Source: Campylobacterales bacterium (GTDB lineage: Bacteria; Campylobacterota; Campylobacteria; Campylobacterales; QNZT01). Taken from it: a DNA stretch of 41,950 bases. Shown here in pieces: positions 137 to 40,055 of the stretch (within the stretch, counting starts at the first letter, position 1; each line of letters starts with the position of its first letter). The stretch covers positions 1 to 41,950 of the forward strand of contig JAJRSK010000059.1 of assembly GCA_024278835.1 (NCBI GenBank), read 5' to 3'. The notes under the pieces were generated by a model. It ran no database searches. It was not told the origin of the DNA and saw only the letters and a program-made list of their open reading frames with translations. Both the position numbers and the translations under genes were made by a program.

Positions 137-201
137 GACTTTAACTTTAAAGTAAAATAATTTGATATCTTGCTATCATGATAACGCCACTTTATATCTG
201 C

Positions 202-207
202 TATAAT
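202..207 (+). promoter_or_regulatory. Candidate -10 box of dnaG
   Basis: TATAAT lies only 7 bases before the chosen dnaG ATG at 214. A transcript starting the usual 6-8 bases downstream would begin at or next to the start codon. No -35 element is evident, as is usual for Campylobacterota sigma-70 promoters. Confidence 0.45.
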
Positions 208-213
208 ACTATC

Positions 214-1878
214 ATGATAGAACAGCAATCCATAGAAACCCTCAAAAATAGACTTGATGTCGTTGATGTTATCGAACGCTACATAGAGCTGAAAAAAGCT
301 GGGGCAAATTTCAAGGCAAATTGTCCTTTTCATGAAGAGAATTCGCCTTCATTTGTCGTCTCTCCTAGCAAGCAGATATATCACTGTTTTGGCTATGGGG
401 CTGGAGGGGATAGTATCAAGTTTGTGATGGAGTATGAAAATCTTAATTACCCCGAAGCCATCGAAAAACTAGCCTCTGAGTATAATGTTCAACTCCAATA
501 CACACAGGGGAGTAAAGATAACTATCATGATAAGAAGATACTCGATAACTACAACCTCTTTTTTCGTAAAAAACTGAGTGAAAATCCTGAAGCACAAGCG
601 TACTTTAAATCGCGAGGGGTGTATGAATCGTCTATCGAAAAGTTTGAACTAGGTTACGCACCGCACTCTAAAGAGTCACTAGAGTATCTCAATAAAAATG
701 GCGTAGGTATGCAAGAGGCATTGGGATTGGGAATTATTGCTAAGAGTGATGATGGCAGGGTTTATGCGCGATTTTCCAAGCGTATCACTTTTCCTGTTTT
801 TACCGCAGGGGGCAAACTTGTAGGATTTGGCGGGCGTATCATCGATAATCGTGAAAATGTTGGCAAATATATCAACTCCCCGACTACGAAAATCTTTGAT
901 AAATCCTCTCTACTTTATGGGTATCACAAAGCCAAGACGACTATCATGAAAAAGGGTGAAATCATCATCGTAGAAGGAAACCTCGATGTTGTGATGTTGC
1001 ACCAAGCGGGATTTACCTCTGCTGTTGCCACACTTGGTACAGCCCTCACCGAGAAGCATATCCCTATCCTAAAGAGGGGTGACCCGAAAATCATTTTGGC
1101 TTATGATGGCGATGATGCGGGGGTGGCAGCGGCATTTAAGGCAGCGAGTATGCTCTCACATCGTGGGATGTTTGGTGGGGTTGTGATATTTGCCAAGGGG
1201 ATTGATCCTGCCGACATGGTCAAGGAGGGCAAGGAGGATGAACTCAAAGCGCTTTTTTCTAAAACAAAAGGGTTTGTAGAGTTTTGTATAGAGCATATCA
1301 TCTCACAGTTTGACACACACAATCCCATCCATAAAGAACAGGCCCTTAAAGAAGCAGTCAAGTACCTCAATACACTCTCACCTATGTTACAAGATGAGTA
1401 CAAACCTTATCTCTCCGCCATCTTAGGTGTGCAAGAGCGCCATGTGCATATCCAACAAGCCCCACAAGAACAGTCTACTTCTGTGCAGTCCCCTCGTAGA
1501 CACGAAGATATCGCAGAACTGAGTATCATAAAAACACTACTTGCCAATCCCCGCATGATAGACCGCATCCTCAATGTCATCTCTTCTGAGATATTTCAAT
1601 CTCACAGGGAAGAGCTAGACCTTGTTATTGGTGATGAAGTGGAGCATCCTTTGCTCATTGGTATCGATATACGAGATGATATACAGGTACATAGCGATGA
1701 AGAGTTCACTCAACAAATCATCTTTTTACTGCGTCGTTACTATAACAATGAACTTAGACGCATCAACTCTATCACCACGCTCTCACTTAGCGAAAAAACT
1801 TTTATAATTCGTAAAATACGGGAAGTGTTAAACCGGCTTCAAAAGGGGGAACTTGTGCCTTATGAGGGGTTTATCTAA
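214..1878 (+). CDS. dnaG: DNA primase DnaG
   Basis: Primase that lays RNA primers on the replication-fork template and works with the DnaB helicase. The 554-residue protein has an N-terminal CHC2 zinc-finger region (C37, H40, C58), a catalytic core and a TOPRIM domain with EGNLD (E254) and DGDDAG (D298-G303). Within the zinc finger, the position of the expected fourth ligand is Tyr61 (HCFGYG rather than HCFGCG). The C-terminal part is diverged, as expected for the DnaB-binding domain. I start it at 214 (MIEQQSIE), because this matches the family N-terminus; an in-frame ATG at 178 would add 12 residues of unlikely sequence. There is no Shine-Dalgarno sequence before 214. Both candidate ATGs lie inside copies of the TATCATGATA palindrome. 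The gene is convergent with ygiQ and overlaps it by 4 bases. Confidence 0.96.
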   Translation: MIEQQSIETLKNRLDVVDVIERYIELKKAGANFKANCPFHEENSPSFVVSPSKQIYHCFGYGAGGDSIKFVMEYENLNYPEAIEKLASEYNVQLQYTQGSKDNYHDKKILDNYNLFFRKKLSENPEAQAYFKSRGVYESSIEKFELGYAPHSKESLEYLNKNGVGMQEALGLGIIAKSDDGRVYARFSKRITFPVFTAGGKLVGFGGRIIDNRENVGKYINSPTTKIFDKSSLLYGYHKAKTTIMKKGEIIIVEGNLDVVMLHQAGFTSAVATLGTALTEKHIPILKRGDPKIILAYDGDDAGVAAAFKAASMLSHRGMFGGVVIFAKGIDPADMVKEGKEDELKALFSKTKGFVEFCIEHIISQFDTHNPIHKEQALKEAVKYLNTLSPMLQDEYKPYLSAILGVQERHVHIQQAPQEQSTSVQSPRRHEDIAELSIIKTLLANPRMIDRILNVISSEIFQSHREELDLVIGDEVEHPLLIGIDIRDDIQVHSDEEFTQQIIFLLRRYYNNELRRINSITTLSLSEKTFIIRKIREVLNRLQKGELVPYEGFI

Positions 1879-3638: not shown

Positions 3639-3668
3639 CGTCCTTTAGGGGATTTTAGCAGAATTTTG

Positions 3669-3704
3669 TATAATGCGCATAAAAATTCCTTTCACTCAAG
3701 GAGA
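3669..3704 (+). promoter_or_regulatory. -10 box and ribosome binding site of the PP-loop gene
   Basis: TATAAT at 3669-3674 lies in the short divergent gap after ygiQ. AAGGAGA follows at about 3699 with 6-7 bases to the ATG at 3711. Both are read directly from the sequence. Confidence 0.55.
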
Positions 3705-3710
3705 AATTAA

Positions 3711-4700
3711 ATGATCAAAGCATTAGCGCTATTTTCAGGAGGGCTTGATAGTATGATTGCTATCAAGTTGCTCACAGACCAAGGTATCGAAGTGACTGCC
3801 CTGCATATCGATATCGGTTTTGGTGGCACAAAAGATAACACGCAATTACTCAAAAGCCGTGCCGCGATGGTAGGGGCAGACTATATGAGTGTCAATACTA
3901 GAGAACAGTTCATTCAAGAGATACTTTTTAATCCAAAGTATGGTTATGGCAAGCATTTTAATCCTTGTATTGATTGCCATGCCAATATGTTTCGTATCGC
4001 GCTGGCACTTTTAGAGGAGCATAACGCCTCTTTTATCATCACGGGAGAAGTTATCGGTCAACGCCCGATGAGTCAGAGATCTGAAGCGATAAAAAATGTC
4101 ACAAAGCTAGCCAATCAAGAAGAAGATGGCTTGATTTTGCGTCCGATGTCTGCCAAGCTGATGGCACCAACTACACCTGAGATAGAAGGTTGGGTCGATA
4201 GAGAGAAGCTACTAGGTATCGAGGGGAGAAGTCGAGAGGTACAGCTTCGACTTGCTAAAGAGTATGGATTTGAAGAGTATGAGAGTCCGGGTGGAGGATG
4301 TCTGTTGACTGAGACTTCTATGGCAATGAAGATTAAAGATGTCGTGGCACATGGGGATTTTAAAGTAGAAGATATCGATGTGCTCAAACATGGTCGGCAT
4401 TTTCGTCTACCTGATGGGGCAAAACTCGTGATGGGACGCAACAAAGAAGACAATGAAATGTTGCAAAAAATTTCTCATCCTGATTATCTCTTTGCAAGAA
4501 CGGTGGGTATCGTGGGTGGTTTATCACTACTCTCATCTGATGCAAGCCAAGCAGATAAAGAGCTTGCGGGTAGGTTGATGCTTACCTATACAAAAGCCCC
4601 AAAAGATACAAATGGTACTATCATGATAGGCGAAGATACTTTAGAAGTGATGCCTTTTGAGGATAAGCGTGAAGCACAAAAGTATTTTGTGTTACAATAA
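3711..4700 (+). CDS. PP-loop ATP pyrophosphatase, ThiI/MnmA-like, probable tRNA or cofactor thiolation
   Basis: N-type ATP pyrophosphatase of 329 residues. The PP-loop is SGGLDS (9-14). A CIDCH motif (C86, C89) follows and could carry sulfur or bind a metal. The C-terminal segment RHFRLPDGAKLVMGRNKEDN resembles the small domain found beside PP-loop domains in archaeal and Campylobacterota ThiI/MnmA-like proteins (an NFACT-R-like fold). Members are annotated variously as thiouridylase or argininosuccinate-synthase-domain proteins, and the true substrate is unclear. I infer adenylation of a tRNA base or small molecule before sulfur transfer. A small membrane protein gene follows after 17 bases. 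One TATCATGATA copy (4619-4628) is translated as IMI near the C-terminus. Confidence 0.75.
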   Translation: MIKALALFSGGLDSMIAIKLLTDQGIEVTALHIDIGFGGTKDNTQLLKSRAAMVGADYMSVNTREQFIQEILFNPKYGYGKHFNPCIDCHANMFRIALALLEEHNASFIITGEVIGQRPMSQRSEAIKNVTKLANQEEDGLILRPMSAKLMAPTTPEIEGWVDREKLLGIEGRSREVQLRLAKEYGFEEYESPGGGCLLTETSMAMKIKDVVAHGDFKVEDIDVLKHGRHFRLPDGAKLVMGRNKEDNEMLQKISHPDYLFARTVGIVGGLSLLSSDASQADKELAGRLMLTYTKAPKDTNGTIMIGEDTLEVMPFEDKREAQKYFVLQ

Positions 4701-4717
4701 ACTTTTTAGGAGAAGGG

Positions 4718-5273: not shown

Positions 5274-5549
5274 ATGAAAATAAAATTATTACTAGTATTG
5301 GCACTTAGTCATGAACTTTTTGCATTTATGTCTCCAAAAGATATAATGGACAGAATGACAATGCAAAATGCGAAAAACATGATGCTTATGCCACTACATC
5401 CTGAAAGAAAAATAGCACAAGGTATGAGATTGATGGAGGAGATGGGTACGGTGTTTGAATACACGGTGACACAAATGAGTAAAAACTCACAACGGAGTAT
5501 TGCTAAAGAGAAAAGTTCCCTGCTACGGAAAGATTTTGCTCTTTATTAA
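5274..5549 (+). CDS. Hypothetical exported protein, Met-rich
   Basis: A 91-residue protein with an N-terminal signal-peptide-like stretch (MKIKLLLVLALSHELFAFM), followed by a methionine-rich segment (residues 20-63; MDRMTMQNAKNMMLM and MRLMEEMG). AGAGGGG lies 5-8 bases upstream of the ATG. The 3' end overlaps the convergent lipoprotein gene by 27 bases. No family is recognised. Met-rich periplasmic proteins sometimes bind copper, but nothing here proves that. Confidence 0.55.
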   Translation: MKIKLLLVLALSHELFAFMSPKDIMDRMTMQNAKNMMLMPLHPERKIAQGMRLMEEMGTVFEYTVTQMSKNSQRSIAKEKSSLLRKDFALY

Positions 5550-6518
5550 GTTGGCTACTTGCTCTTGCGTGGTAGTTGTCATATGATAATGAATATCGTC
5601 TGTTTGGAACATCTCGTGTATAAAGTTAATTTCACCCATAGTATCAATCAAAGGTAATCCAAGTTCATTGGAAATCTCTAGGTAGGCAGTCTTAAGAATA
5701 TTGCTTTTTTGTGTTGCTTCAAATGCATCTGGATCTTTCGGATTTGGCATCGTGAGAAGAAAGTGTGTATGTGGTTTTTGTGCCTTTATCTTACCAATGG
5801 CACTTATTATATCTGTTTTTATATCTGCAACTGTTCCGTCATAATTATTTGCCTCACTAAAAATATCATTTATCCCCAAGGAAATATCGACAATAGCTGT
5901 GCTACCATCACTTGGAATGATATTGCTAACATCACGCCATGTAGGAGAACGTGTTTCTAGATTAAATTGTTTTGCCTCCTGTCCTGCTTTGGCATATAGG
6001 TATGAAGAAACGTTATATCCATCTAATGCACTTTTTAGTACATCAAAAAGATGTTCTCCATTGTAAGGAGAAGGAGGGTTGTCAAAGGGAGAAAGTGGGC
6101 CAGCTCTTGTACTATCACCCACACATATATAGGTTGCACTTCCACTAGAGATAAGATTTTGGATGGCAGAAAAAGGAGTAGTCGCTGTATCATTAACGGT
6201 TATTGTGATAGATGCATGGTCTGTTAAACCATCATCATCTGTCACCTTTAGTGTGATGGTATATGTTCCTGCTATATTTGGTGCAATCCATGACGCTTCA
6301 CTTGCTGTACTAAAACGTTTATTATTTTCAATCCATTGATAAGATACTATGTTACCATCACTGTCGCTGCTTGCGTTGGCATTTAGTGTAAGTACTTCTA
6401 ACGTCTGTATCGTTGTTATACTTGTTATACGTGCAACTGGTGGTTGATTTGTAAGTTGTGTATCATTCCCACAACCTATGAAGAATAATAAAAAAATAGG
6501 TAGTAAATACTTTATCAT
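5523..6518 (-). CDS. PKD-domain SGNH/GDSL hydrolase lipoprotein
   Basis: A 331-residue predicted lipoprotein. The lipobox is FFIGC (Cys16). A PKD-type beta-sandwich follows (about residues 27-110; NANASSDSDGNIVSYQW and GTYTITLKVTDDDG). The C-terminal SGNH hydrolase domain has block I GDST (the GDSL motif), block III GIND and block V DDIHYH (catalytic Asp-His). It is likely an esterase or acyl-hydrolase anchored in the envelope with the PKD domain as a spacer or binding module; the substrate is unknown. Its start codon is the central ATG of a TATCATGATA copy (6513-6522), and no clear Shine-Dalgarno sequence precedes it. Confidence 0.85.
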   Translation of the reverse strand: MIKYLLPIFLLFFIGCGNDTQLTNQPPVARITSITTIQTLEVLTLNANASSDSDGNIVSYQWIENNKRFSTASEASWIAPNIAGTYTITLKVTDDDGLTDHASITITVNDTATTPFSAIQNLISSGSATYICVGDSTRAGPLSPFDNPPSPYNGEHLFDVLKSALDGYNVSSYLYAKAGQEAKQFNLETRSPTWRDVSNIIPSDGSTAIVDISLGINDIFSEANNYDGTVADIKTDIISAIGKIKAQKPHTHFLLTMPNPKDPDAFEATQKSNILKTAYLEISNELGLPLIDTMGEINFIHEMFQTDDIHYHMTTTTQEQVANLIKSKIFP

Positions 6519-6594
6519 GATAACCTCTCTAATATTTTGGCTATAATACTACAAAAATGTGTATAAAAAGTGTATAGCATACAAAAGGAGCATT

Positions 6595-7319: not shown

Positions 7320-7322
7320 CCC

Positions 7323-16699: not shown

Positions 16700-16746
16700 G
16701 CTAGTTCTTACACCCATTTTCTGGGTTGATAATGCGGAAGGTTATC

Positions 16747-18135
16747 ATGATAGATTTTATCACACTGCATTTTTTTACACTATTTACTTTTTTACTTATC
16801 TTTGTAACAATTGGACATCTCTTTACGCAAAGAAAAAAACCCTCTAGTACTATTGCTTGGACAGTCACCATCATCGCACTTCCTTACATAGGCATCCTTT
16901 TTTATGTGATATTTCATGGTAGAAAATTGAATAAAATCATCAAAAATATAAAAGAGATTAAACTCAAAAAGATACATGAGGTTGAGGCAGGATTTGATTC
17001 TAGAATAGAGAAATTGTTGCGCGCAAATAGACTTGCAGGGGCAACTTCGGGGAATGCATTTGCACTTTGTGAGGATGGATTAGATAGCTATCAAAAACTT
17101 ATTGCACTTTTAATGAGTGCGAAATCTAGTATTTATATCTCTACATATATCTTTGGGAAGGATATAGTGACACAAAAGATTGTGGATATTTTGGTGCAAA
17201 AGGCAGAAGAAGGGGTGGAAGTTAAATTACTTGTTGATGCTTTTGGTTCACAAAGATTGGAGTTTTTTCCCTCTATTTTAAAACCACTTCAAAAAGCAGG
17301 AGGTGAATATCATTTTTTTATGTCGATGATAAAACACCCTTTTGATAGTAAGCTCAACTTGCGAAATCATAGAAAGATGATTATTGTTGATTGTTGTTCT
17401 GTGATGAGTGGTGGGATTAATATCTCAAAATTATATCTCTCACCTGTGAACTATGAAGGTTTATGGATGGATTTATCTTTCATCCTCAAAGGTGCTGGAG
17501 CATTGCATTATAAAGAGATATTTCGTCATAACTGGGAAAATGATGCCAAAACAATGCTCAGAAAATACCCAGAGAAAGAGCGTGAACTTGAGTATGGTAA
17601 GAGTATCGTGCAAGTTGTTCCTTCTGGTCCCGATGTGGATAGTGATGCACTTTATGAAGCATTACTGGCTTCAATCTATGAAGCACAAAAGAGGATTTGG
17701 ATAGTGACACCTTATTTTGCACCGGATAACTCCCTCATGGATGCTTTAATTGTGGCAAAGCACCGTGGTGTCGAAATAAAAATTATTACACCTCAAACAT
17801 CTGATAACGCTTTGGCAGATATTGCACGTAGCGGATTTTTGAGGGATTTACAATATGAGGCGGTTGAGATACTCTTTTTTAAAAATAAGATGATGCACGC
17901 TAAGGCTTGTTTGATAGATGATAAATGCGCCATACTTGGCTCTTCAAACTTTGATGCCAGAAGCTTTTTTTATAACTTTGAAGTAGTGAGCTTTATCTAT
18001 ACAAAAGAGGATATCATGATAGTGAAGCTGTGGATTGAGAGGCTGTTTTCGGAGTGTGAATATGGTATAAAAGAGGTTTCAAATATACGAAAACAGTTAG
18101 AAAACTTTTTTAAGATGTTTGCACCAGCATTGTAA
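16747..18135 (+). CDS. cls: Cardiolipin synthase (phospholipase D family)
   Basis: Makes cardiolipin from phosphatidylglycerol at the inner membrane. The 462-residue protein has two N-terminal membrane helices and two HKD motifs: HRKMIIVD (His208) and HAKACLID (His384). Length and architecture match bacterial Cls. I choose the ATG at 16747 because GGAAGG (16736-16741) is correctly spaced. Upstream in-frame starts (TTG 16726, ATG 16732) lie before that site. The chosen ATG is the centre of a TATCATGATA copy. A phosphoesterase gene follows after 11 bases, probably in the same operon. Confidence 0.92.
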   Translation: MIDFITLHFFTLFTFLLIFVTIGHLFTQRKKPSSTIAWTVTIIALPYIGILFYVIFHGRKLNKIIKNIKEIKLKKIHEVEAGFDSRIEKLLRANRLAGATSGNAFALCEDGLDSYQKLIALLMSAKSSIYISTYIFGKDIVTQKIVDILVQKAEEGVEVKLLVDAFGSQRLEFFPSILKPLQKAGGEYHFFMSMIKHPFDSKLNLRNHRKMIIVDCCSVMSGGINISKLYLSPVNYEGLWMDLSFILKGAGALHYKEIFRHNWENDAKTMLRKYPEKERELEYGKSIVQVVPSGPDVDSDALYEALLASIYEAQKRIWIVTPYFAPDNSLMDALIVAKHRGVEIKIITPQTSDNALADIARSGFLRDLQYEAVEILFFKNKMMHAKACLIDDKCAILGSSNFDARSFFYNFEVVSFIYTKEDIMIVKLWIERLFSECEYGIKEVSNIRKQLENFFKMFAPAL

Positions 18136-22355: not shown

Positions 22356-22388
22356 GCGCTATTATAGCAAAAGTGTGGATTGATACTA

Positions 22389-23514: not shown

Positions 23515-24435
23515 TTATTTAAATGTTTTTTCTAAAAATGGAACCACTTGCTTTTTACGACTTAGTACGCCATCAAGCCATACTTTAGAATCTTTAGTTT
23601 TTACTCCAAAAGCTGATTCAATCTTACTGATATCATCACTAGCGATTAAGAGTTCTGAACCCTCTTTCATGATATCGGTAAGTAGTAGTAACACAGAGTG
23701 TCTATCTCCCTCTTCTTTTAGTGCTTGTAAATCCTTGAGTAATTCCTCTTTCATCGTATCAAACATTGTGATATCGACCGTTTCAAGTTGACCGATGCCG
23801 ACTTTAGTGCCTGACATATTAAAGTCTTTAAAGTCTCTCATCACAAGATTACGGATAGGGGTGCCTTCTATGGCTGACTTGATTTTAAACATCTCCATGC
23901 CTAACTCTTTAGGGTTTTCTATGCCTGCTATTTTAGCTAACTCTTTGACTGCTTTGGTGTCAGCTTTGGTGCATGTTGGAGATTTAAAGATAACGGTATC
24001 GCTTAAAATGGCACACATCATGATACCTGCGATATTGGCTGGAATCTCAATGTTATAATAATCAAACATCTCTTTAACGATAGTATTTGAACAACCAACC
24101 GGACGGATCCACGCTTCTAAAGGTGTAGAGGTTGTTAAATCACCAAGCTTGTGGTGATCTACGACACCGACGACATTGGCATCTAAAATATCATCTGGAC
24201 ATAAAGCTAAGTCTGTTGTATCGGTGATAAAGGTATCTTCATCTGCGTAGCTGGTTTTGGTGATAGGTACTTCGCAAGCAAATTTTTCTAAGATAAATGC
24301 TGTTTCTGGGTTGATATCACCTTGTTTACAAGCGATTGCTTCGATGCCTTGGGCGTTCTTGAGGTAGGCTACTGCGATAGCTGAGCAGATAGAGTCTGAG
24401 TCTGGGATTTTGTGTCCTGTTATGTAAAGAGCCAT
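23515..24435 (-). CDS. ppaC: Manganese-dependent inorganic pyrophosphatase
   Basis: Family II pyrophosphatase that hydrolyses pyrophosphate to two phosphates. The 306-residue protein has GHKIPDSDS near the N-terminus (His and two Asp metal ligands), the DHH motif VDHHKLGDL, and the C-terminal DHHA2-type substrate domain ending LSRKKQVVPFLEKTF (RKK motif). I start it at 24435 (MALYITGHK). The open frame continues upstream to 24513, but those residues are not family-like, and AAGGAAAA precedes the chosen ATG. A TATCATGATA copy (24493-24502) lies just upstream. Confidence 0.93.
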   Translation of the reverse strand: MALYITGHKIPDSDSICSAIAVAYLKNAQGIEAIACKQGDINPETAFILEKFACEVPITKTSYADEDTFITDTTDLALCPDDILDANVVGVVDHHKLGDLTTSTPLEAWIRPVGCSNTIVKEMFDYYNIEIPANIAGIMMCAILSDTVIFKSPTCTKADTKAVKELAKIAGIENPKELGMEMFKIKSAIEGTPIRNLVMRDFKDFNMSGTKVGIGQLETVDITMFDTMKEELLKDLQALKEEGDRHSVLLLLTDIMKEGSELLIASDDISKIESAFGVKTKDSKVWLDGVLSRKKQVVPFLEKTFK

Positions 24436-24681
24436 AGTTTTCCTTGCTGTATAAAGTTTTTTATAATAGTACCATATCGGCATAAATATTTCTATCATGA
24501 TAGATAAAAACAAGTGCCTAAAAATTAATCACTTTTTTTTCACAAAGCAAATAAGATAATGTTATCATTTTCTCAAGTTGTCAAGTTCTACCTCAAATTG
24601 AGGTAAGCTTCAGTAGAGCGTGAATTTTAGAGGGGCTTTGCTCCTCTAAAAGATGACAATTAAATAAAAAAGGATATGAAT
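24436..24681. promoter_or_regulatory. Intergenic region upstream of amtB with a palindrome and leader hairpin
   Basis: A 246-base gap between the divergent ppaC and amtB genes. It contains a TATCATGATA copy (24493-24502) and a 17-base dyad TACCTCAA-A-TTGAGGTA (24589-24605) that could be an operator. A 12-bp stem is formed by TTTTAGAGGGGC (24625-24636) and GCTCCTCTAAAA (24640-24651), with one G-U pair and a TTT loop. AAGGA at 24670-24674 favours the amtB ATG at 24682 over 24676. No gene is seen. No sigma-54 element (TGGCAC-N5-TTGC) is recognisable. Confidence 0.55.
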
Positions 24682-26343: not shown

Positions 26344-26354
26344 ACCTATCATGA

Positions 26355-26360
26355 TATAAT
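26355..26360 (+). promoter_or_regulatory. -10 box of the lipoprotein gene, overlapped by the palindrome
   Basis: TATAAT at 26355-26360 lies 31 bases before the ATG at 26391. The last two bases of a TATCATGATA copy (26347-26356) are the first two of this box. AGAGGAGG precedes the ATG. A protein bound to the palindrome could interfere with this promoter. Confidence 0.5.
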
Positions 26361-26390: not shown

Positions 26391-27350
26391 ATGAAACGTG
26401 TATCATTATTTCTTATACTATTTTGGCTATATGGATGTACCTCAGTCATGGAAAACAGTACAATAAAAAACAATCAAAGCAACAGCAATAATCGCTCTTT
26501 TCAATCTGTTTGGAATGAAGTGATAAAAGACCCCTATACAACGCTTCCTCAAACTAAAGTTTCTTATTTTAAGCTCTCTTCTGGTGGCAAAGATGTCATA
26601 TTGGAGAATTCACAAAGAACACTCACTGAGCACGCCGATATCATCGCACCATTTGAAAAACTTGCCCATCCCAATGGTATCTGCTTGAAAGGTGTTTGGG
26701 AGATTTATCATGATAACCCTTATGGTGGGTATTTTAAAAAGGGTAGTAAAGCATTGATTATTGTGCGTGCTTCTTCAGCTATGTCTAACACCCGTCGTGG
26801 TGAAACACGGGCATTTGGTTTGGCTGGAAAGCTGTTTCCTACTTTGAGAGAGGATAAGGTTAGCAAGGAATATACAGCAAACTTCTTCTTGATAGATGAT
26901 TTAGGTGGGAGTGATGCGGTACATTTTACGGATGTCACTTTGACCAATGAACCTAGTGTGACGACCACTTTTGAAGTGATTAAACACTTGATGTATGGTC
27001 TGAAAGTGGCCAAAACTTTCGCAAAGGCTGATAAACACGCTGGTATCAGACAAGTGTATGAGGTTGCTTATCTAGGAGAGAAAAAAGATGCCAAAGTATT
27101 AACGCCAAAGTGGATGAAAGTAGAAGCACAAAAAGAGCAAACAGTGGATGCTGAGGATTTTCGTGATGAATTGCGTTTGGAAAATGGGAAAAAGTTAATT
27201 TTTGATATTTTTGTGGCTAGTGAGATAAAAGAGGGTAAAAAGATGTGGCAAAAGATAGGCGCGATAACTTTGGATACCTCTGTCGCTTCAGGGAGTTGTG
27301 ATAGAGAGCTTCATTTTCATCATCCTTTGTGGAGAGAAGACCTTAAATAA
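26391..27350 (+). CDS. Lipoprotein with catalase-like motifs
   Basis: A 319-residue lipoprotein (lipobox LYGC, Cys16). Residues 90-175 carry a pattern reminiscent of the catalase/heme-peroxidase fold: LAHPNGICLKGVWEI (His93), GYFKKGSKALIIVRASS, TRRGETRAFGLAGKLFPT, TANFFLIDDL. In catalases the matching blocks are the distal-His HGKGAGAFG, the F(S)T stretch, RGFALKFYT and NNTPVFFIRD. The proximal-Tyr helix of true catalases was not found, so heme binding is uncertain. I call it a catalase-like lipoprotein by motif order only. A TATCATGATA copy (26706-26715) codes for YHD here. Confidence 0.5.
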   Translation: MKRVSLFLILFWLYGCTSVMENSTIKNNQSNSNNRSFQSVWNEVIKDPYTTLPQTKVSYFKLSSGGKDVILENSQRTLTEHADIIAPFEKLAHPNGICLKGVWEIYHDNPYGGYFKKGSKALIIVRASSAMSNTRRGETRAFGLAGKLFPTLREDKVSKEYTANFFLIDDLGGSDAVHFTDVTLTNEPSVTTTFEVIKHLMYGLKVAKTFAKADKHAGIRQVYEVAYLGEKKDAKVLTPKWMKVEAQKEQTVDAEDFRDELRLENGKKLIFDIFVASEIKEGKKMWQKIGAITLDTSVASGSCDRELHFHHPLWREDLK

Positions 27351-27425: not shown

Positions 27426-28871
27426 ATGAAATTATTAAAAATTCTTATCATGATAAGCCTTGTAACGACACTCATATATGCGGATAAAGTCCCCAATGGT
27501 GTAAAAGACTCTATCGTTAAAATCTATACGGTGGCTAAAGTACCAAAGTATTTAGAACCTTGGAATGTTTCTATCTCACGCTCTTCAGGGTCTGGCTCTA
27601 TCATCACAGGTAATCGTATCTTGACAAATGCCCATGTAGTGGCAAATAGCACCTTTATCGAAGTGCGTCGATATGGTAAGAGAAAGCGTTATAAAGCCAA
27701 AGTTTTGTCGGTTTCTCATCAAGCAGATTTGGCACTTTTAGAAGTGGAAGATGGGAGTTTTTTTGAGAGTGTTGTGCCTTTAGATTTTGGAGTATTGCCA
27801 AAGATTCAGCAGAAGATTACGGTATATGGTTTCCCAACAGGTGGGGATACACTCTCGGTGACTACGGGGGTTGTGTCACGTATAGAGCATCTGCGTTATG
27901 TACATAGTGGAGAGAGCTTTTTGGCCATTCAAGTTGACGCTGCGATAAACCCTGGCAATAGTGGTGGACCTGCATTTTCGCAGGGGAAAATCGTTGGTGT
28001 TGTGATGCAGCAAAGACGTCACTCTCAAAATATCGGTTATCTTGTACCCATTAACATGATAAAGCATTTTCTTCATGATATGGAGGATGGTAGTTATGAT
28101 GGATTTCCAGATATTGGGATTGTGACACAAAAGTTGGAAAATCCCACACTTAAAGAGATGTATAAACTAGATGAAAATCGCACGGGTCAACTCATCATCA
28201 CGAAGTTGTATAATTTTAATGCTTCTGAGAGTATAGAAGTGGGGGATGTATTAACAGCGATTGATGGGCATAAGATAGAAGATGATGGCACGGTTGAGTT
28301 TCGTCATCACGAATATACTTCTTATAAGTACTATTTGGATTTGCACCAGATGGGAGATGAAATCACATTGACGATTTTCAGAGATAACAAAGAGAAAGAG
28401 GTAAAGTTCAAACTCACCCATAAAAGTGATGATTTGTTACTGGTTAAAACGATGCGATATGATACAATGCCCACCTATTTTATCTGTGGTGGGTATGTTT
28501 TTTCTCCTCTTACGAGTAATTTACTCGCTTCTACAAGGGGAAGTCTACTCTCCTTGCGTTCGATGACTAGAGATTGGCCCAAAAAAGATAAAAAAGATGT
28601 GGTTGTTTTGGTGAAAGTTTTGGCGACTGATTTTAACCGTGGAGATCATGGACTCGCGCTTTGGGCCATCGAAAAAGTGAATGGTGCGCATTTTAAAACC
28701 TTTGATGAATTTTATCAAAAAGTGACAAATTTTCATGGAGAGTTTTTACTTTTGGAGGATCATGAGGGCTCCCAGGTGGGGATAGATGTCAAAAAAGCCA
28801 AAGAGGGAAGAGAGAAGATACTAAAGCGTTATTATATCAAAGCTGACAAGTCGATTGATTTAATCCATTAA
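27426..28871 (+). CDS. Periplasmic trypsin-like protease with PDZ domains (DegP/HtrA family)
   Basis: A 481-residue exported serine protease. A signal peptide covers about residues 1-19 (ending LIYA-DK). The catalytic triad is His70 (TNAHVV), Asp101 (HQADLALLEV) and Ser179 (GNSGGP). A PDZ-like domain follows (about 245-325; SIEVGDVLTAIDGHKI), then an additional C-terminal region (about 340-470) with DRGDHGLALW-like text resembling the PDZ_3 of plant/epsilon Deg proteases. It would degrade or refold envelope proteins. A separate htrA may exist elsewhere. A TATCATGATA copy falls in the signal-peptide region (IMI). Confidence 0.87.
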   Translation: MKLLKILIMISLVTTLIYADKVPNGVKDSIVKIYTVAKVPKYLEPWNVSISRSSGSGSIITGNRILTNAHVVANSTFIEVRRYGKRKRYKAKVLSVSHQADLALLEVEDGSFFESVVPLDFGVLPKIQQKITVYGFPTGGDTLSVTTGVVSRIEHLRYVHSGESFLAIQVDAAINPGNSGGPAFSQGKIVGVVMQQRRHSQNIGYLVPINMIKHFLHDMEDGSYDGFPDIGIVTQKLENPTLKEMYKLDENRTGQLIITKLYNFNASESIEVGDVLTAIDGHKIEDDGTVEFRHHEYTSYKYYLDLHQMGDEITLTIFRDNKEKEVKFKLTHKSDDLLLVKTMRYDTMPTYFICGGYVFSPLTSNLLASTRGSLLSLRSMTRDWPKKDKKDVVVLVKVLATDFNRGDHGLALWAIEKVNGAHFKTFDEFYQKVTNFHGEFLLLEDHEGSQVGIDVKKAKEGREKILKRYYIKADKSIDLIH

Positions 28872-32813: not shown

Positions 32814-33473
32814 ATGCCTATCATGATAAGTTCTGCCACTTTTTTATGTCCTCTTTGTCACTCATCCAAAACAGAAGAATTTTCACACTCAGAAAATCGT
32901 CATTATCATCTTTGTCAAATTTGCGATGTTGTTTTTGTGCCCCAAAAGTATCTTGTTAGTAAGATAGAAGAAAAATCCAAGTATGATAATCACCAAAATA
33001 GTCCAGACAATGAAGGCTATTGTACTTTTTTGGATAAGTTACTTTTGCCCTTAGAGGAGTACCTAAATAGAGGTGATAGAGGACTTGATTTTGGTTCTGG
33101 TCCGGGTCCCACTCTCTCTATTATGATGGAAAAAAGAGGATATAAGATGGATATCTATGATATCTTCTATCATGATAGTCCTGAAGTGTTTGATAAAGAG
33201 TATAATTTTATCACGAGTACGGAGGTGATTGAGCACTTACGTCATCCTATGAAGGAGATAGAGAGATTATGGGGATGCTTGAAGGAGGGTGGTGTGCTTG
33301 GGCTTATGACAGCATTTCGCGTAGGTGATTTTGAAAGATGGTATTATAAGAGAGATTTGACGCATATACGATTTTTTACCCCTTCGACATTTAAGTGGCT
33401 GGCAAAAAAGCTAGGGGCGACACTCATCATTCCTGAGAGTGGTGTGGTGATACTAAAAAAGGATGTTTTGTGA
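32814..33473 (+). CDS. Class I SAM-dependent methyltransferase with zinc-ribbon start
   Basis: A 219-residue methyltransferase. It opens with a two-CxxC zinc-ribbon (CPLCHSS...CQICDVVF), then a SAM-binding motif LDFGSGPGPTLSIM and STEVIEHLRHP typical of class I enzymes (UbiE/Methyltransf_23-like). The substrate is unknown. There are two in-frame starts, 32814 and 32823; the second is the centre of a TATCATGATA copy, and neither has a strong ribosome binding site. A second palindrome copy (33168-33177) is translated YHD. The TetR gene overlaps its end by 4 bases (GTGA). Confidence 0.85.
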   Translation: MPIMISSATFLCPLCHSSKTEEFSHSENRHYHLCQICDVVFVPQKYLVSKIEEKSKYDNHQNSPDNEGYCTFLDKLLLPLEEYLNRGDRGLDFGSGPGPTLSIMMEKRGYKMDIYDIFYHDSPEVFDKEYNFITSTEVIEHLRHPMKEIERLWGCLKEGGVLGLMTAFRVGDFERWYYKRDLTHIRFFTPSTFKWLAKKLGATLIIPESGVVILKKDVL

Positions 33474-34112: not shown

Positions 34113-34622
34113 ATGTTTATTTATAAACCAGATGGCACACTAGAGAGCCAGTCTCTCAAAGATAGAGTCAAAGAGAAGTTTGGCATGATGCCACCGCACT
34201 GGGAACTTTTGGTACAGATGAATCCTAAGCGATTTGAGATGTTTATGGATGAGATAGGGTATCTGCTCAATCATCCTCATATCCATCCTGACTTTTTCGC
34301 ATTTATACGCTTGTATATCGCGAGTAAAGAGGGGTTTTCTTACTGTAAATCTTTTAATACTAAGTTACTTTTAGCACGTGGATATGATAAAAAAGTGTTA
34401 CAAGCGTATAAATATGATATCTATACTTTACCACTAGATGAGAAGCATCAAGCACTTATGGTGGGTGTGATGAAGGCGATGTTTGAGCCTGATGATTTTA
34501 GTGCACAAGATATAAAATCGTTGAAGGTGTATGGCTGGAGTGATGGGGATATATATGATGCCATTGACCATGGGGCATTTTTGTTTAAATTTTCTCGGAT
34601 TTTAAAGGCGTACTTATCATGA
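34113..34622 (+). CDS. Carboxymuconolactone decarboxylase/AhpD-like protein
   Basis: A 169-residue all-helical protein. The segment FIRLYIASKEGFSYCKSFNTKLLLARGYD resembles the active-site helix of the CMD/AhpD family, but only one cysteine (YC) is present where AhpD-type members have CxxC. The residue after the helix also differs from the family's usual histidine. It may be a non-redox relative. AAGGAAGA precedes the ATG. The stop codon TGA lies within a TATCATGATA copy (34615-34624). It follows the TetR gene by 64 bases. Confidence 0.55.
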   Translation: MFIYKPDGTLESQSLKDRVKEKFGMMPPHWELLVQMNPKRFEMFMDEIGYLLNHPHIHPDFFAFIRLYIASKEGFSYCKSFNTKLLLARGYDKKVLQAYKYDIYTLPLDEKHQALMVGVMKAMFEPDDFSAQDIKSLKVYGWSDGDIYDAIDHGAFLFKFSRILKAYLS

Positions 34623-34643
34623 TAAGTGTCTTTAATGGTCTCC

Positions 34644-34707
34644 TTGTTAGAAAGCAAAGCTCCCTAACAATTCCTAGCACTAAAGCACAATGCTTACGCA
34701 TCGTAAG
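34644..34707. repeat. Two short hairpins before the hotdog-fold gene
   Basis: TTGTTAG (34644-34650) pairs with CTAACAA (34664-34670). CTTACG (34693-34698) pairs with CGTAAG (34702-34707) around a CAT loop. The second hairpin ends just before the ribosome binding site, so its stability could affect initiation at 34717. Confidence 0.45.
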
Positions 34708-34716
34708 GGAGTTATC

Positions 34717-35106
34717 ATGATAATCCCTTTTATGGATACGATAGGATTGGTGGGTGAGACTTTGGAGTGTACAAAAGGAGTGCAAAATCATCTAGGTTCT
34801 ATCCACGCCGGAGCGCAGTTTACTTTTGCTGAGAGTATGAGTGGGAAGTACCTCTCTTCTATTTTTCCTGACATGCAAGATGAGATTATTCCATTATTGC
34901 GGGAGTCTACTGTCAAGTATAAAAAACAGGCATTAACGGCGCTGGTGAGTGAAGTATCTGTGGATAAAGAAGATTTAGAGAAGTTTAAAGTGCGATTTGC
35001 ATTAAAGGGGCGTGCGAGTATAGTGGCAAATGTAATTTTAAGAGATGATGAAGGTGATATAACATGTCAGGGGAGTTTTAAGTGGTTTGTGCAGCGTAAG
35101 GAGTAG
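34717..35106 (+). CDS. Hotdog-fold thioesterase-like protein (DUF4442/PaaI-like)
   Basis: A 129-residue protein with the hotdog signature HLGSIHAGAQFTFAE in its first third, where PaaI-type thioesterases have GxxHGGA. It may hydrolyse an acyl-CoA or bind an acyl chain; the substrate is unknown. I start it at 34717 (MIIPFMD), because GGGAG is 5 bases upstream; an in-frame ATG at 34690 lies inside a hairpin and has no such site. The start codon is the centre of a TATCATGATA copy. Confidence 0.72.
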   Translation: MIIPFMDTIGLVGETLECTKGVQNHLGSIHAGAQFTFAESMSGKYLSSIFPDMQDEIIPLLRESTVKYKKQALTALVSEVSVDKEDLEKFKVRFALKGRASIVANVILRDDEGDITCQGSFKWFVQRKE

Positions 35107-35557: not shown

Positions 35558-36004
35558 ATGAAAAGATTTTTAATCACAGTTGCAGCAGCAACATTGGTAG
35601 CATCTTCAGCAATCGCTGGTGGTAACTCAAATACAGGTTGTGGACTTGGTTCTATGATTATCCCTGTGCAAGATACGGTAGCAACACAAATCTTGGCAGC
35701 AACAACAAATGGTACATCAGGAAACCAAACATTTGGTATCACATCAGGTTCATTAAACTGTACAAAACCTATGAAAATAGTGATGAATGATCAAGCACAA
35801 AAGTTTGTAGCAGACAACATGGATAGTATCGCAGTAGAAGTTGCAGCTGGTCAAGGTGAAAATTTAGACACGCTTCTTTCTCTTATCGATGTTGAAGATA
35901 AAGTAAAAGCAGCGGCAACGTTGAAAGCAAACTTTTCTAACATCTATTCAAGTTCAGACGTAACATCAGCACAAGTGGTTGATAGTATTGCTACTGTACT
36001 TTAG
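35558..36004 (+). CDS. DUF3015-family exported protein
   Basis: A 148-residue exported protein with a Sec signal (cleavage near AIA-GG). The mature start GCGLGSMII, then ATTNGTSGNQTFGITSGSLNC is the DUF3015 pattern, with two conserved Cys that could form a disulfide. The role is unknown. I start it at 35558 (MKRFLI), where AAGGAG precedes; the frame opens upstream at 35507 with no ribosome binding site. It sits 4 bases before the DUF4105 start and may share a transcript. Confidence 0.82.
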   Translation: MKRFLITVAAATLVASSAIAGGNSNTGCGLGSMIIPVQDTVATQILAATTNGTSGNQTFGITSGSLNCTKPMKIVMNDQAQKFVADNMDSIAVEVAAGQGENLDTLLSLIDVEDKVKAAATLKANFSNIYSSSDVTSAQVVDSIATVL

Positions 36005-36008
36005 TCAT

Positions 36009-37706
36009 ATGAGACAAGTGTTAAGATTTTTAACACTTGTTCTCTTTTTTCTCCCTTCCTTCTCCTATTCCCTAGATACTAAAAAACTTTCAAAAGAACG
36101 TTACTGGCAACAACTTTTACATTTTTGTGATGGAAAAAGTGAGATAGATTCTAAAGAATTTTTTCTCTCACCAAAGGGCAAAACAGACGCCAAGGCAGAG
36201 TTGGATGCAACGCTCAATGCTATCTATTATGATAAGAAAGTATTTTGCAAGTTTCCTGCGCGTGTAAAGTGGCTATATGAAAAGATTCCTTCACTTGAGA
36301 ATTATCAAACGTGTGAAGCCTTAGAAAATCTCATCGAAAATTACCAAGCTTCTAAGGCGGTGCTGGTTTTCCCAACGGCGCACATCAACTCTCCTGCCTC
36401 TATGTTTGGACATACTTTTTTACGTCTTGATGATAAAAAAGGTTTGGCACTTACTGCAAATGCCGTCAACTACGCGGCTAAAACGACGGAAACCAATGGA
36501 CTTATATTTGCCTATCAAGGGTTATTTGGTGGTTATGAAGGGCGTTATTCGGTATTGCCTTATTATAAAAAGATTAAAGAGTACAATAACTTGGAGAGAC
36601 GTGATATCTGGGAGTACACACTCAACTTAGAAACGCCGGAGTTACGAAGGCTTTTGACCCATCTTTATGAGTTAAAAGATATGTATGGAGATTATTTTTT
36701 CTTTACAGAAAATTGTTCTTATAACTTGTTGTGGCTTTTAGAAATAGCACGTCCAAACACGCATTTAGTGAAAAATTTTTCTATCAAAGCGATTCCTATC
36801 GATACGATAAGGGCAGTGAAAGAGGCGGGTTTTATAGAAGATGTCAATTTCCGTCCCTCTAAAACAAAGCGTATCAAGTCACTACTTTTTGAAGAACAAA
36901 AGGCAAAAGGCAAGTTAAAAGAGGCGTATCATGCCGAACTAGGCGTAGAGTTGCTCCAGCTAAAACGCACGCAAAATAAGATAGATAAAAAGGGGTATGT
37001 CACAGAGTTGATGCAGCGTCTAGCAATAAGAAGCAAATTACCTACCTTGCCAAAAGCTAGTATAAAAAAACCACCAAATCCACTCTCAGCGCATCAATCT
37101 ACAAGGCTTGAAATGGGTATGGATGGTAAAAAAGCTTTGGAATTTGGTGTTAAATTGGCTTTTCATGATATCTATGATGTGGAGAAGGGATTTATCACAG
37201 GCGCATATATAGACTTTTTTCATCTTTTGCTCTCCAAAGAGCAATCTGGAGATATAAAGTTGAAAAATTTAAATCTTGTTAACATCAACTCGTATGCGCC
37301 ACGAGATAAAATCTTTAAGCCATTTTCTTGGGGAGTGCAGGTCGGGGCTGAGGCGTTTAGAAATCAGACGTATTTTAAACTCAAAGGGGAAGTGGGGCTC
37401 AGCTATGCCTATCATGATAGGCTCTTTGGCTTTATCATGATACGTCCTTCGTTTTACTATCATGATAGCCTTCTTGCAGGGGTTGGTCCTAAGCTTGGAA
37501 TGATTGTTAATTTTGAAGATACTAAGTTTGGTGTGATTGGGGAGAAAAGCTTTTATAGTGATGGTGGAGATGATTTTCATGCGGAAGTTTTTTCTACTAT
37601 CATGATAGATAAAAATAGTGCTATAAATCTAAAGATAGATAGTGATAAAATAGGGCAAACAAAAGCAGATACGCGTTTTAGTGCTTCGATTTTTTACTAT
37701 TTTTAG
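36009..37706 (+). CDS. DUF4105-family envelope protein
   Basis: A 565-residue protein with a signal peptide (about 1-20). The DUF4105 domain shows [22 protein letters not shown], then a [16 protein letters not shown] segment. The C-terminal third has beta-rich text ([29 protein letters not shown]) and ends in FYYF, as outer-membrane proteins often do, so an outer-membrane barrel is possible. The domain's function is not established. The ATG at 36009 has no clear ribosome binding site; translation may couple to the DUF3015 gene 4 bases upstream. Four TATCATGATA copies lie within its last 300 bases. Confidence 0.8.
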
Positions 37707-37714
37707 GGGTTATC

Positions 37715-38704
37715 ATGATACTAAGTATTGAGAGTTCTTGTGATGATAGCTCTATCGCTATCACAGAGATAAAAACAAAAAAGGTTCTTTTTCATACTAA
37801 AATATCGCAAGAGTTAGAGCACTCTGTTTATGGTGGTGTCGTACCTGAACTAGCCGCGCGCTTACATGCCAAGGCCTTGCCTGATATCTTAGAGAAAACA
37901 ACAGCATATTTCCCTTCTCTAAAGGCGATTGCTGTGACCAATGAACCTGGGCTTTCGGTGACATTGGTGGAAGGAGTGATGATGGCACAAGCACTCTGCC
38001 TCTCTTTGGATGTTCCCATCATCGCGGTGAACCATCTCTATGGGCATATTTATTCGCTTTTTATCGAAAAAGAGACGCATTTTCCACAAACTATTTTGCT
38101 CGTTTCTGGTGGGCATACGATGGTGATAGAAGCAAAAGGCTTTGATGATTTTAGGGTGATTGCTTCTAGTATGGATGATAGTTTTGGTGAGAGTTTTGAT
38201 AAGGTAGCTAAGATGTTGGGTTTAGGCTATCCTGGTGGCCCTGTGGTTGAGAAGTTAGCAGGAGAGGGTGATGCGCATCGTTTTAACTTTACCGTGCCGC
38301 TTTACCATTCTAACAAGATTGCATTTTCTTACTCTGGGCTTAAAAATCAAGTACGCTTGGCGATTTTGGAGTTGGGTGATAGCAGAAGTGAACAAGATAC
38401 GGCAGATATTTGTGCCTCATTTCAGCGCGTAGCGACGGAACATCTCCTGCATAAACTCAAAAAGATTTTTAAAACGACAAAGATAAAAGACTTTTCTATC
38501 GTGGGAGGGGCAAGTGCCAATCTTTATCTTCGTGGAAAGATAGAAAAACTTTGTGCTGAATTTGGGGCAACTTTACATCTTGCAGCATTGGAGTATTGTT
38601 CTGATAATGCTGTCATGATAGGGCGGTATGCTATAGATGCCTATCATGACAAGCAGTTTACAGACTATAGCGATATCACATCAAATCCAAAAGTTTTTAA
38701 ATAA
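37715..38704 (+). CDS. tsaD: tRNA N6-threonylcarbamoyladenosine synthase catalytic subunit TsaD
   Basis: Transfers threonylcarbamoyl to A37 of tRNAs that read ANN codons. The 329-residue protein has an actin/HSP70-type ATPase fold, with [13 protein letters not shown] at the start, the metal-binding HLYGH, and [10 protein letters not shown]. The C-terminal SDNAVMIG completes the family pattern. The start ATG is the centre of a TATCATGATA copy (37711-37720), 8 bases after the DUF4105 stop. Confidence 0.95.
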
Positions 38705-38768
38705 ATAGATAATTCACACTAAGTTCATATTGCTCTGCTATCCTAGCACTATCATGATAGGAGTAACT

Positions 38769-40055
38769 ATGAAGTATATTTTGACACTATTGGTTTTTTC
38801 CAATATGCTATTTGCTAGTACGCTAGATGGTCTCATCAAGCAAGCTTTGCAAAAAAGCACATTGATACAACAAGCCAAAGCCAACAGAGAACTTTCCTCT
38901 CTCAAAGTACAAGAGAGCAGAGCTTCGCGCTATGGTGAACTGGGTGTTGTAGGCGACGCAACACACTATAACATCGAACGCACCCTCGCACCTTTATCAC
39001 CTAATGCGATAGGTAGTGGTCAACCCATCACCACAAGTGATGATATTTTCTCACTAGGACTCTCTTACTCGCTCCCTCTTTTTACAGGGTTTGCACAGAC
39101 AAGACAAGTAGAGATGGATGCCTTAGCAAGTCACATGGCAGAGATAAAACTCTCTTTGACCAAAGAGCAGTTGATTTATAATATCCGCACACTCTATCTT
39201 GCTATTTTGACGCAAAAAGAGATTTTGCTAGCGCAAAAAAAGTATACATCCACTTTAAAGAAATTAAGCAAACAGATAGGATATGAAGTAAAGTTAGGGA
39301 AAAAAGCCCAGATAGATTTACTTAAATCAGAAGCAGATTATCAAGCGTCTAAAACAAAAGAAGCTATCTTAAAAACCAATATCAAGACAACAAAAGCGAC
39401 ACTCTCTTCGTTGGTAGGGGAAGATGTGTCTGTTTTAGAACCTATCATGATAGCAGTTAAAGAGCCGCATTATTCACTAGATACATTGTATGAAACAAGT
39501 GCCACACTGGGCAAGATACAGTCCCAAGAGTTGGCGATTAAAAAAGCAGAAAAGATGATATCTAAAAGCAAATCAGCCAATCTACCACAAGTCAATCTAG
39601 CCTCATATCTTGGTAAAAACTATGGTGAAGATATCAAAACTAATGACTGGGATGATGAGACACTTTGGCAAGTCGGGCTCAATCTCAAGTATAACCTTTT
39701 GGATTTTGGTAAACGAGATGCTGGTGTACAAAAGGCAAAAATTGCAGCGTTACAAGCAAGGCTAAACAAAAAGCAGACATTACTTGACTTGAAAAAACTT
39801 TTGATTGAGTCTATTGGCAATATTGAACAAAGTTATGCTCAGTTTCAAGGAAATGCTACACAGTTAGCGTTGAGTGAAAAAAGTGGGAAAATAGAAAAAG
39901 TGCGTTATGAAAATGGTGTCGCTACACTCAATGATCTTTTACTAGCACAAAGTAAGACACTTTTAGCAAAAGCAAAAGTGATTGAGAGTAAGTATGGATA
40001 TCAGAAAAATGTATATTATTTAGATTATGTATTGGAGAGAAGTAGTGAAGATTAA
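38769..40055 (+). CDS. TolC-family outer-membrane efflux protein
   Basis: An outer-membrane channel subunit of 428 residues for a three-part efflux pump. It has a Sec signal (cleavage near LFAS), two long helical halves and two beta stretches (GLSYSLPLFTGF and GLNLKYNLLDFG), the usual TolC repeat. The start at 38769 is supported by AGGAG 5 bases upstream; the open frame reaches back to 38730. A TATCATGATA copy (38750-38759) ends at the first base of that AGGAG, and a second (39443-39452) lies in the gene. The adaptor gene overlaps its end by 11 bases. Confidence 0.9.
   Translation: MKYILTLLVFSNMLFASTLDGLIKQALQKSTLIQQAKANRELSSLKVQESRASRYGELGVVGDATHYNIERTLAPLSPNAIGSGQPITTSDDIFSLGLSYSLPLFTGFAQTRQVEMDALASHMAEIKLSLTKEQLIYNIRTLYLAILTQKEILLAQKKYTSTLKKLSKQIGYEVKLGKKAQIDLLKSEADYQASKTKEAILKTNIKTTKATLSSLVGEDVSVLEPIMIAVKEPHYSLDTLYETSATLGKIQSQELAIKKAEKMISKSKSANLPQVNLASYLGKNYGEDIKTNDWDDETLWQVGLNLKYNLLDFGKRDAGVQKAKIAALQARLNKKQTLLDLKKLLIESIGNIEQSYAQFQGNATQLALSEKSGKIEKVRYENGVATLNDLLLAQSKTLLAKAKVIESKYGYQKNVYYLDYVLERSSED

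Follow-up and report, generated by a model that had tools for sequence, protein, structure and literature searches.

Why should a single 10-base palindrome, TATCATGATA, occur 26 times in one 41,950-nucleotide stretch of Campylobacterales DNA (contig JAJRSK010000059.1, positions 1 to 41,950; that whole stretch is called the window below)? In 100 dinucleotide shuffles of the window, the word was found 0.06 times on average and never more than once. Matches with at most one mismatch numbered 43 as compared with 2.9 expected, 17 of which were one-off copies. A preliminary description of this DNA had listed the same 26 exact copies and a preference for an extended form, YTATCATGATAR, in 22 of them, and inspection of the flanks returned both figures. 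Its statement that near-matches are fewer than exact copies also stood, and its estimate by eye of about 14 near-matches was close to the count of 17. Our answer, held tentatively and a little short of probable, is that YTATCATGATAR is an element similar to the highly iterated palindromes (HIPs), namely the site that a symmetric DNA-binding protein, probably a homodimer, recognises chromosome-wide, and that it is kept at the DNA level.

The source genome (G000; 2,507,854 bases, almost complete) carries 1,549 copies of TATCATGATA, or one per 1.6 kb, and 7 copies of the reversed word. The preliminary description had named a genome-wide count near expectation, or an enrichment confined to the window, as outcomes that would speak against it, and neither is what the genome contains. 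Chance or a window-only effect was ruled out by the shuffles, the genome-wide copies and Markov models. The statistics rest on samples of 677 kb from G000 (41 stretches including the window, 7.3 kb masked) and 784 kb from G002 (40 stretches), a genome that is 89% complete. In both samples TATCATGATA was the top over-represented 10-mer under an order-3 Markov model (476 vs 12.3 expected in G000, 368 vs 8.4 in G002). The enrichment in G000 was about 39-fold over the order-3 model, 64-fold when the copies were masked from the model, and 228-fold over base composition, for which the 100 to 200 times suggested earlier was a fair order of magnitude.

How far does this enrichment extend among the relatives? 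G002, the one other available genome of the genus, carries 1,009 copies, and the other 20 of the 22 family genomes carry 3 to 88. Two wider surveys both covered a single order. Among 398 genomes, the next highest count of TATCATGATA was 166 in G056, which belongs to a different family, and no other one exceeded 100. In another set of 397 genomes, each at least 90% complete and each from this order, the 12-base form occurred 1,161 times in G000, 64 times in G056 and at most 10 times in each of the rest. G002 and the outgroup G015 (99% complete, 6% contamination) were absent from this set and had 761 and 49 copies of the 12-base form in a separate count. In 400 kb sampled from G056 (20 stretches), TATCATGATA was the first-ranked 10-mer (30 vs 2.9 expected, in 15 of the 20 stretches) and accounted for 23 of the 36 IMI tripeptides, as compared with 7% expected; ATCATGAT was enriched more widely there (120 vs 34). 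It also ranked first in 340 kb of G015 (about 72 kb masked; 18 vs 3.9 expected), where it accounted for 15 of the 20 IMI tripeptides vs 12% expected. Seventeen of the remaining family members fell between about 0.65 and 3.7 times an order-2 expectation, a rough range because the expectations for 18 relatives were taken from 3.6-30 kb of loci, mostly near methyltransferase genes; several members are thus without an excess. The enrichment declines in steps, from about 40- to 60-fold in the genus to 10-fold in G056 and 4- to 5-fold in G015. These results show a massive expansion of TATCATGATA in one genus and, in two lineages outside it, a weak enrichment. Given the latter, the predicted reader protein is probably older than the genus, which probably multiplied its sites. 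The enrichment in G056 may have an independent origin.

What, then, is the unit that is repeated? The site YTATCATGATAR is a perfect dyad, the information of which ends at ±6. With both species pooled, 58% of the copies have C and 28% have T as the left neighbour of the 10-mer, and beyond this first neighbour the base frequencies are close to background. The extension keeps the palindrome, with C/T on the left and G/A on the right at ±6, and CTATCATGATAG is present at 175 of the 476 G000 copies. With copies masked, words carrying 0, 1 and 2 mismatches occurred at 64, 2.2 and 0.94 times expectation in G000 and at 62, 2.5 and 1.04 times in G002, in line with the earlier remark that exact copies dominate near copies. 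One-off words with a strong enrichment carry their change at position 1 or 2 and on a single side. CATCATGATA was found 79 times vs 10.7 expected in G000 and 48 times vs 9.6 in G002, and TGTCATGATA 38 times vs 5.0 and 72 times vs 6.2, respectively; GATCATGATA was enriched in G002 (28 vs 5.6). A milder excess was seen in G000 at positions 4 and 5 (TATTATGATA, 13 vs 7.0; TATCTTGATA, 29 vs 17.8), and two-sided variants of the palindrome were near background. The enclosed hexamer TCATGA showed no enrichment outside the 10-mer in the G000 sample (819 in total, 476 within copies, 321 expected). The mismatch profile and the flat flanks indicate that the unit is a dyad of 10-12 bp with a strict core and softer edges.

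Is the palindrome kept for the DNA or for the peptide that it encodes? In coding DNA TATCATGATA reads YHD or IMI, which had been noted for the window and holds in the samples of both species; a TGA blocks the third frame. As was also described earlier, copies are found in coding and non-coding DNA, 364 of 476 lying wholly inside open reading frames (ORFs; simple longest-ORF calls), and intergenic copies are denser than coding copies. The two species were aligned over 133.8 kb at 74% identity, with 4 and 1 gapped copies left out. Identical copies were found in G002 for 45 of the 90 G000 copies and in G000 for 45 of the 70 G002 copies, whereas the flanks differ by 27-28% and identity was seen for 2 of 21 and 2 of 19 shuffled control words. 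Intergenic ungapped copies were identical in 7 of 15 cases (3 gapped ones left out). The choice of codons points the same way. G000 uses ATCATGATA for 218 of 222 IMI tripeptides and TATCATGAT for 159 of 165 YHD, where codon usage predicts 14% and 43%; the corresponding figures in G002 are 163 of 187 (11% expected) and 134 of 150 (45% expected). Where the peptide is kept between the species, the full nine bases are also retained for IMI in 23 of 24 cases (23% expected) and for YHD in 8 of 8 (52% expected), whereas the third positions of fourfold-degenerate codons with a kept residue differ in 61%. The outgroup G015 reveals the cost to proteins. Across 41 aligned genes (those below 40% identity or 60% coverage were dropped), the peptide was kept at 0 of 18 copies, and all six residue positions under the site were kept less often than the same residue on average. 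The absence of the peptide from the outgroup at all 18 copies indicates that the copies changed proteins. The coding density in G000 was 0.235 and 0.362 per kb in the two frames, as compared with 0.306 for one third of the intergenic density. TGA stop codons lay within a copy in 20 of 145 cases in the G000 sample and in 17 of 175 in G002. The palindrome is kept on DNA. The conservation between species beyond that of the flanks and at synonymous positions supports both the active maintenance and the analogy to HIP1 of cyanobacteria that the preliminary description had put forward.

The copies are spread evenly along the chromosome. Counts per stretch fit a constant density (chi-square 33.3 on 37 degrees of freedom for 38 stretches of G000, 3 of the 41 with almost no readable letters being left out; 29.7 on 39 degrees of freedom for the 40 stretches of G002), and the gaps between copies are near exponential, with coefficients of variation of 1.12 and 1.02. 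No copy-poor island was found, in that no stretch with more than 5 copies expected fell below 45% of expectation, and the longest copy-free run in the samples was 11.6 kb. An operator of one regulon was rejected since the copies, 364 of 476 of which lie wholly within ORFs, are not confined to promoter regions. A special clustered locus was rejected as well, quadruples within 500 bp numbering 5 vs 2.5 expected in G000 and 0 vs 0.6 in G002. Close pairs extend to longer complementary stems than re-paired flanks (mean 1.83 vs 0.93 bp, 29 pairs), so some may serve as terminator hairpins. Complementary bases bordered by close copies in a hairpin-like manner, possibly transcription terminators, were observed at L055:9080, L117:10917, L123:9696 and L068:12072. 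The copies of the window are given below; no strand is assigned to the palindrome itself, and the signs are those of the ORFs.

174-183, copy 1, straddles the start of ORF 178-1878 (DnaG-like primase)
210-219, copy 2, coding, IMI, ORF 178-1878 (+)
523-532, copy 3, coding, YHD, ORF 178-1878 (+)
4619-4628, copy 4, coding, IMI, ORF 3711-4700 (+)
6513-6522, copy 5, straddles the start of ORF 5523-6518 (-)
16743-16752, copy 6, coding, IMI, ORF 16726-18135 (+, phospholipase-D-like)
18012-18021, copy 7, coding, IMI, ORF 16726-18135 (+)
19470-19479, copy 8, coding, IMI, ORF 18906-19508 (-)
19626-19635, copy 9, coding, IMI, ORF 19512-20456 (-)
22387-22396, copy 10, straddles the end of ORF 22389-23243 (-)
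22677-22686, copy 11, coding, IMI, ORF 22389-23243 (-)
24493-24502, copy 12, coding, IMI, ORF 23515-24513 (-)
26347-26356, copy 13, intergenic
26706-26715, copy 14, coding, YHD, ORF 26391-27350 (+)
27446-27455, copy 15, coding, IMI, ORF 27426-28871 (+, trypsin/PDZ protease)
32819-32828, copy 16, coding, IMI, ORF 32814-33473 (+)
33168-33177, copy 17, coding, YHD, ORF 32814-33473 (+)
34615-34624, copy 18, straddles the end of ORF 34113-34622 (+)
34713-34722, copy 19, coding, IMI, ORF 34690-35106 (+)
37410-37419, copy 20, coding, YHD, ORF 35979-37706 (+, Lnb_N/DUF7840)
37433-37442, copy 21, coding, IMI, ORF 35979-37706 (+)
37458-37467, copy 22, coding, YHD, ORF 35979-37706 (+)
37598-37607, copy 23, coding, IMI, ORF 35979-37706 (+)
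37711-37720, copy 24, straddles the start of ORF 37715-38704 (+)
38750-38759, copy 25, coding, IMI, ORF 38730-40055 (+, outer membrane efflux protein)
39443-39452, copy 26, coding, IMI, ORF 38730-40055 (+)

The densest cluster in the samples is at 37410-37720, with four copies in the Lnb_N/DUF7840 gene and a fifth at the start of the next gene.

Which protein might read the site? Four methyltransferase families (PF01555, PF02086, PF02384 and PF00145) were searched in the 22 family genomes, and among these no methyltransferase tracked the copy number (PF07669 and others were not searched). The N6_N4 class had no member over the cut-off in G000 or G002. The C5 class had two in G000 and none in G002, a weak piece of evidence as G002 is 89% complete. 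N6_Mtase proteins occur in both species, and the best ones, which were the ones compared, are non-orthologous at 28% identity. The search for MT-A70 (PF05063) gave no match but was uninformative, its control being equally silent. The sole orthologous methyltransferase found in both copy-rich genomes is a D12 adenine enzyme of 344 amino acids, 78% identical between them, which matches the PADLOC type II and orphan methyltransferase models; a sequence search of the PDB gave no match and NCBIfam gave sub-cut-off matches only. This enzyme is also found in nine other family genomes (55-64% identity in eight, one being fragmentary), and its alignment has no 20-column window in which the genus departs by more than 0.11 beyond the mutual difference of the others. 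Its three neighbouring ORFs of at least 150 amino acids in G000 encode an FAA hydrolase, SelO and an exo/endonuclease-phosphatase-family protein, with no recognisable restriction enzyme among them. The methylating protein suggested earlier as a reader is not supported, though still conceivable, as the shared D12 enzyme also occurs in copy-poor relatives and TCATGA is unenriched outside the site. Hexamers that contain GATC are strongly depleted in G000, AGATCT occurring 98 times vs 1,153 expected (both strands), and about two-fold less frequent than expected in G002 (494 vs 1,133), suggesting that the past of G000 included a GATC-cutting system.

Mismatch repair and competence were considered as well. 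The former is unusual in type, in that MutS1 was over the cut-off in 0 of the 22 family genomes, 16 of which had long matches below it. In G000 the protein that best matches the MutS1 model is a MutS-family protein (L116:1-2793, G000:C23) with MutS domains I, III and V. Its tail bears an HNH-like Cys/His motif by eye; the frame is cut at the stretch end and Pfam reports no HNH. From its sequence the protein looks like MutS7, a lineage described from epsilonproteobacteria (excerpts of PMC3166940), and the tail suggests that a repair with a built-in nicking domain may exist. The MutS picture neither proves nor excludes a repair-driven origin of the palindrome. ComEC is present in G000 and G002, as it is in 17 of the 20 other family members, so natural transformation is possible.

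Could the excess be an ordinary effect of composition, codons or protein motifs? The word does encode YHD and IMI and shows a weak excess in several relatives. However, it stands 64-fold over the order-3 model, ATCATGATA and TATCATGAT are used for IMI and YHD far above codon expectation in both species, and intergenic copies are denser than coding ones. The enrichment and the codon-choice counts refute this explanation, to which we attach practically no credence. It is only marginally easier to believe that the copies are debris of a small mobile or hairpin element, such as a repetitive extragenic palindrome (REP) or a terminator, with the palindrome as its core. Such debris would fit the longer complementary extensions of the close pairs (1.83 vs 0.93 bp), but the flanks are near background beyond ±6, leaving no shared flanking sequence of the REP or miniature inverted-repeat transposable element (MITE) type, and 364 of 476 copies lie wholly inside ORFs. 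Carriage by phages was rejected, three viral contigs having two copies within 30 bp and no more in the stretches inspected. In a close-pair scan of named genomes (80 of 90 stretches listed), which is unfit as a survey, many of the hits inspected, apart from the sister genome, look like paired operators or palindromic arrays. Loci of Vibrio, Kiloniella and Silicimonas (L126, L128, L130, L139) carry paired 14- to 18-base palindromes around TATCATGATA, 27 or 30 bp start to start, that look like double operators of an unrelated regulator. In Candidatus Lindowbacteria (63-64% G+C in three stretches measured), several loci have two copies 12 bp apart (L138, L165, L170, L172, L176), the pair of L138 lying in a larger palindromic array.

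Two other explanations deserve more weight. The palindrome, perhaps adenine-methylated, could be a self-recognition signal for natural transformation that marks own DNA and spreads by molecular drive through uptake and recombination, comparable to methylated RAATTY in C. jejuni and to the non-palindromic uptake sequences of Neisseria and Haemophilus. Both species have ComEC and the D12 adenine methyltransferase, the latter with no recognisable restriction partner among the three neighbouring ORFs, and the copy number per genome is within the range of uptake sequences. Campylobacter jejuni imports only RAATTY-methylated DNA (CtsM), according to excerpts of PMC10046745 and PMC8468864. In contrast, the uptake sequences in the excerpt of PMC1939737 are non-palindromic and fall off less steeply, the ratios to base composition at mismatch loads 0 and 1 being 228 and 4.5 here as compared with about 146 (438/3) and 11 (947/86) for ACAAGCGGTC. 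Moreover, coding tolerance is full in G000, nine further family genomes have D12, and ComEC is present in 17 of the 20 other members. Transformation is unlikely as the explanation, though worth keeping in view. ComEC makes the uptake model of the preliminary description possible, while symmetry, steep fall-off and coding tolerance speak against a classical uptake sequence and would be more in keeping with a dimeric reader in the cytoplasm than with a receptor on a pilus. Alternatively, under the mutational ratchet of Elhai, proposed for HIP1, a methyltransferase and methyl-directed mismatch repair create and fix the palindrome, and the site has no selected function. In its favour, one-off words lean to outer positions, as for HIP1 (excerpts of PMC4390886), and there is a MutS-family protein that has domains I, III and V together with a tail that by eye resembles HNH. 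Nevertheless, D12, the only shared orthologous methyltransferase found, occurs in copy-poor genomes and has no genus-specific window above 0.11, TCATGA is unenriched outside the 10-mer, and MutS1 is over the cut-off in none of the 22 family genomes. We consider the ratchet improbable.

In the reading that we prefer, a homodimeric sequence-specific protein would read YTATCATGATAR about once per 1.6 kb, and selection, or an equally strong conversion bias, would keep the site at the DNA level. The site would then be written alike into non-coding DNA and both of the coding frames open to it, and protein sequence would bear the cost. A single protein that predates the genus would read it, probably as a dimer, and its role would be in chromosome upkeep (repair, recombination, nucleoid organisation or the marking of own DNA) and not in local gene control. 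Several observations weigh against such a dimeric reader. No protein reading the palindrome was found, and a contiguous dyad of 10-12 bp leaves little room for a classical helix-turn-helix dimer that binds one face of the DNA. The data do not separate selection from biased repair. Copies were not identical in the other species in 45 of 90 cases for G000 and 25 of 70 for G002, and the peptide was kept in G002 at only 32 of 77 aligned coding copies (IMI 24 of 54, YHD 8 of 23), which indicates a high turnover. The coding density of G002 is below full tolerance (0.161 and 0.219 per frame vs 0.266). A role that calls for even spacing explains neither the excess of pairs 20-29 bp apart (18 vs 3.3 in G000, 5 vs 1.7 in G002) nor the five copies within 310 bp at 37410-37720. 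Finally, the comparison within the genus rests on one other genome, G002.

How does the site compare with known systems? The palindrome behaves like a HIP, with the methyltransferase link undecided in the classes searched and a G+C content unlike that of the alternates that replace HIP1. In excerpts of PMC4390886, HIP1 (GCGATCGC) and the alternate HIPs of cyanobacteria share with it a short perfect palindrome, a symmetric extension, an outer-position bias of one-off words and gain on particular branches. The density of HIP1 is one per 1,131 bp in Synechocystis 6803 (excerpt of PMC6604393), as compared with one per 1.6 kb here. The very high ratio of observed to expected copies that marks a HIP across a genome is found (64-fold over the order-3 model), as are deviations at the outer positions, with a strong excess at positions 1 and 2 only. 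On the other hand, TATCATGATA has 20% G+C, whereas alternates that take the place of HIP1 have at least 75% in those excerpts of PMC4390886. Unlike cyanobacterial HIPs, the site spans 10-12 bp, belongs to Campylobacterota and encloses an unenriched hexamer. Known HIPs accompany methyltransferases that recognise part of the palindrome, as stated in the same excerpts, whereas no matching methyltransferase was found here in the four families searched, and the shared D12 enzyme is of unassigned specificity. HIP1, known since 1995, has a role that is still under debate (excerpts of PMC4390886 and PMC6604393).

The DNA uptake sequences, uptake signal sequences and DNA uptake enhancing sequences (DUS, USS, DUES) of Neisseriaceae and Pasteurellaceae resemble the palindrome in copy number, in their genus-limited dialects and in close inverted pairs able to form hairpins. 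They differ from it in that the present site is a true palindrome with a sharper near-match fall-off and, in G000, has no shift to non-coding DNA beyond that imposed by the forbidden frame. The graded near-match excess in a non-palindromic word that characterizes uptake sequences was not seen (2.2-fold at load 1, 0.94-fold at load 2), and a competence channel was (ComEC in G000 and G002). Chi sites are asymmetric and oriented whereas TATCATGATA is symmetric. Like the palindrome, Chi sites are over-represented genome-wide (excerpts of PMC4390886). The RAATTY mark of C. jejuni (CtsM) comes from the same phylum, is palindromic and involves an adenine methyltransferase; one that lacks an evident restriction partner occurs in the present genomes as well. 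Reportedly, RAATTY was treated by Beauchamp et al. in 2017, and selection on HIP1 by Xu et al. in 2018. RAATTY is, however, another word, short and very frequent, with 28,170 occurrences in one C. coli genome (excerpt of PMC4687069), and methylation of TATCATGATA is not evidenced. The word itself is printed in 13 papers, none of them devoted, by title or abstract opening, to a genomic motif in this group, and among the matches listed for HIPs and over-represented palindromes there was no iterated palindrome of Campylobacterota, in agreement with the preliminary description, which knew of no such motif in this phylum.

The palindrome represents a second, independent HIP-like case, with a different sequence and in another phylum, and a DNA-level pressure strong enough to rewrite protein sequence. 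Copy-rich and copy-poor relatives stand side by side in a graded series, which makes comparative and biochemical tests possible. It is conceivable, though we would not call it likely, that Campylobacterota hold a conserved, undescribed reader of YTATCATGATAR and that one genus multiplied the sites of this reader to at least 1,000, with no more restraint within proteins (as IMI and YHD) than in intergenic DNA. HIPs would then be a general chromosomal element that can arise outside cyanobacteria and without a matching methyltransferase.

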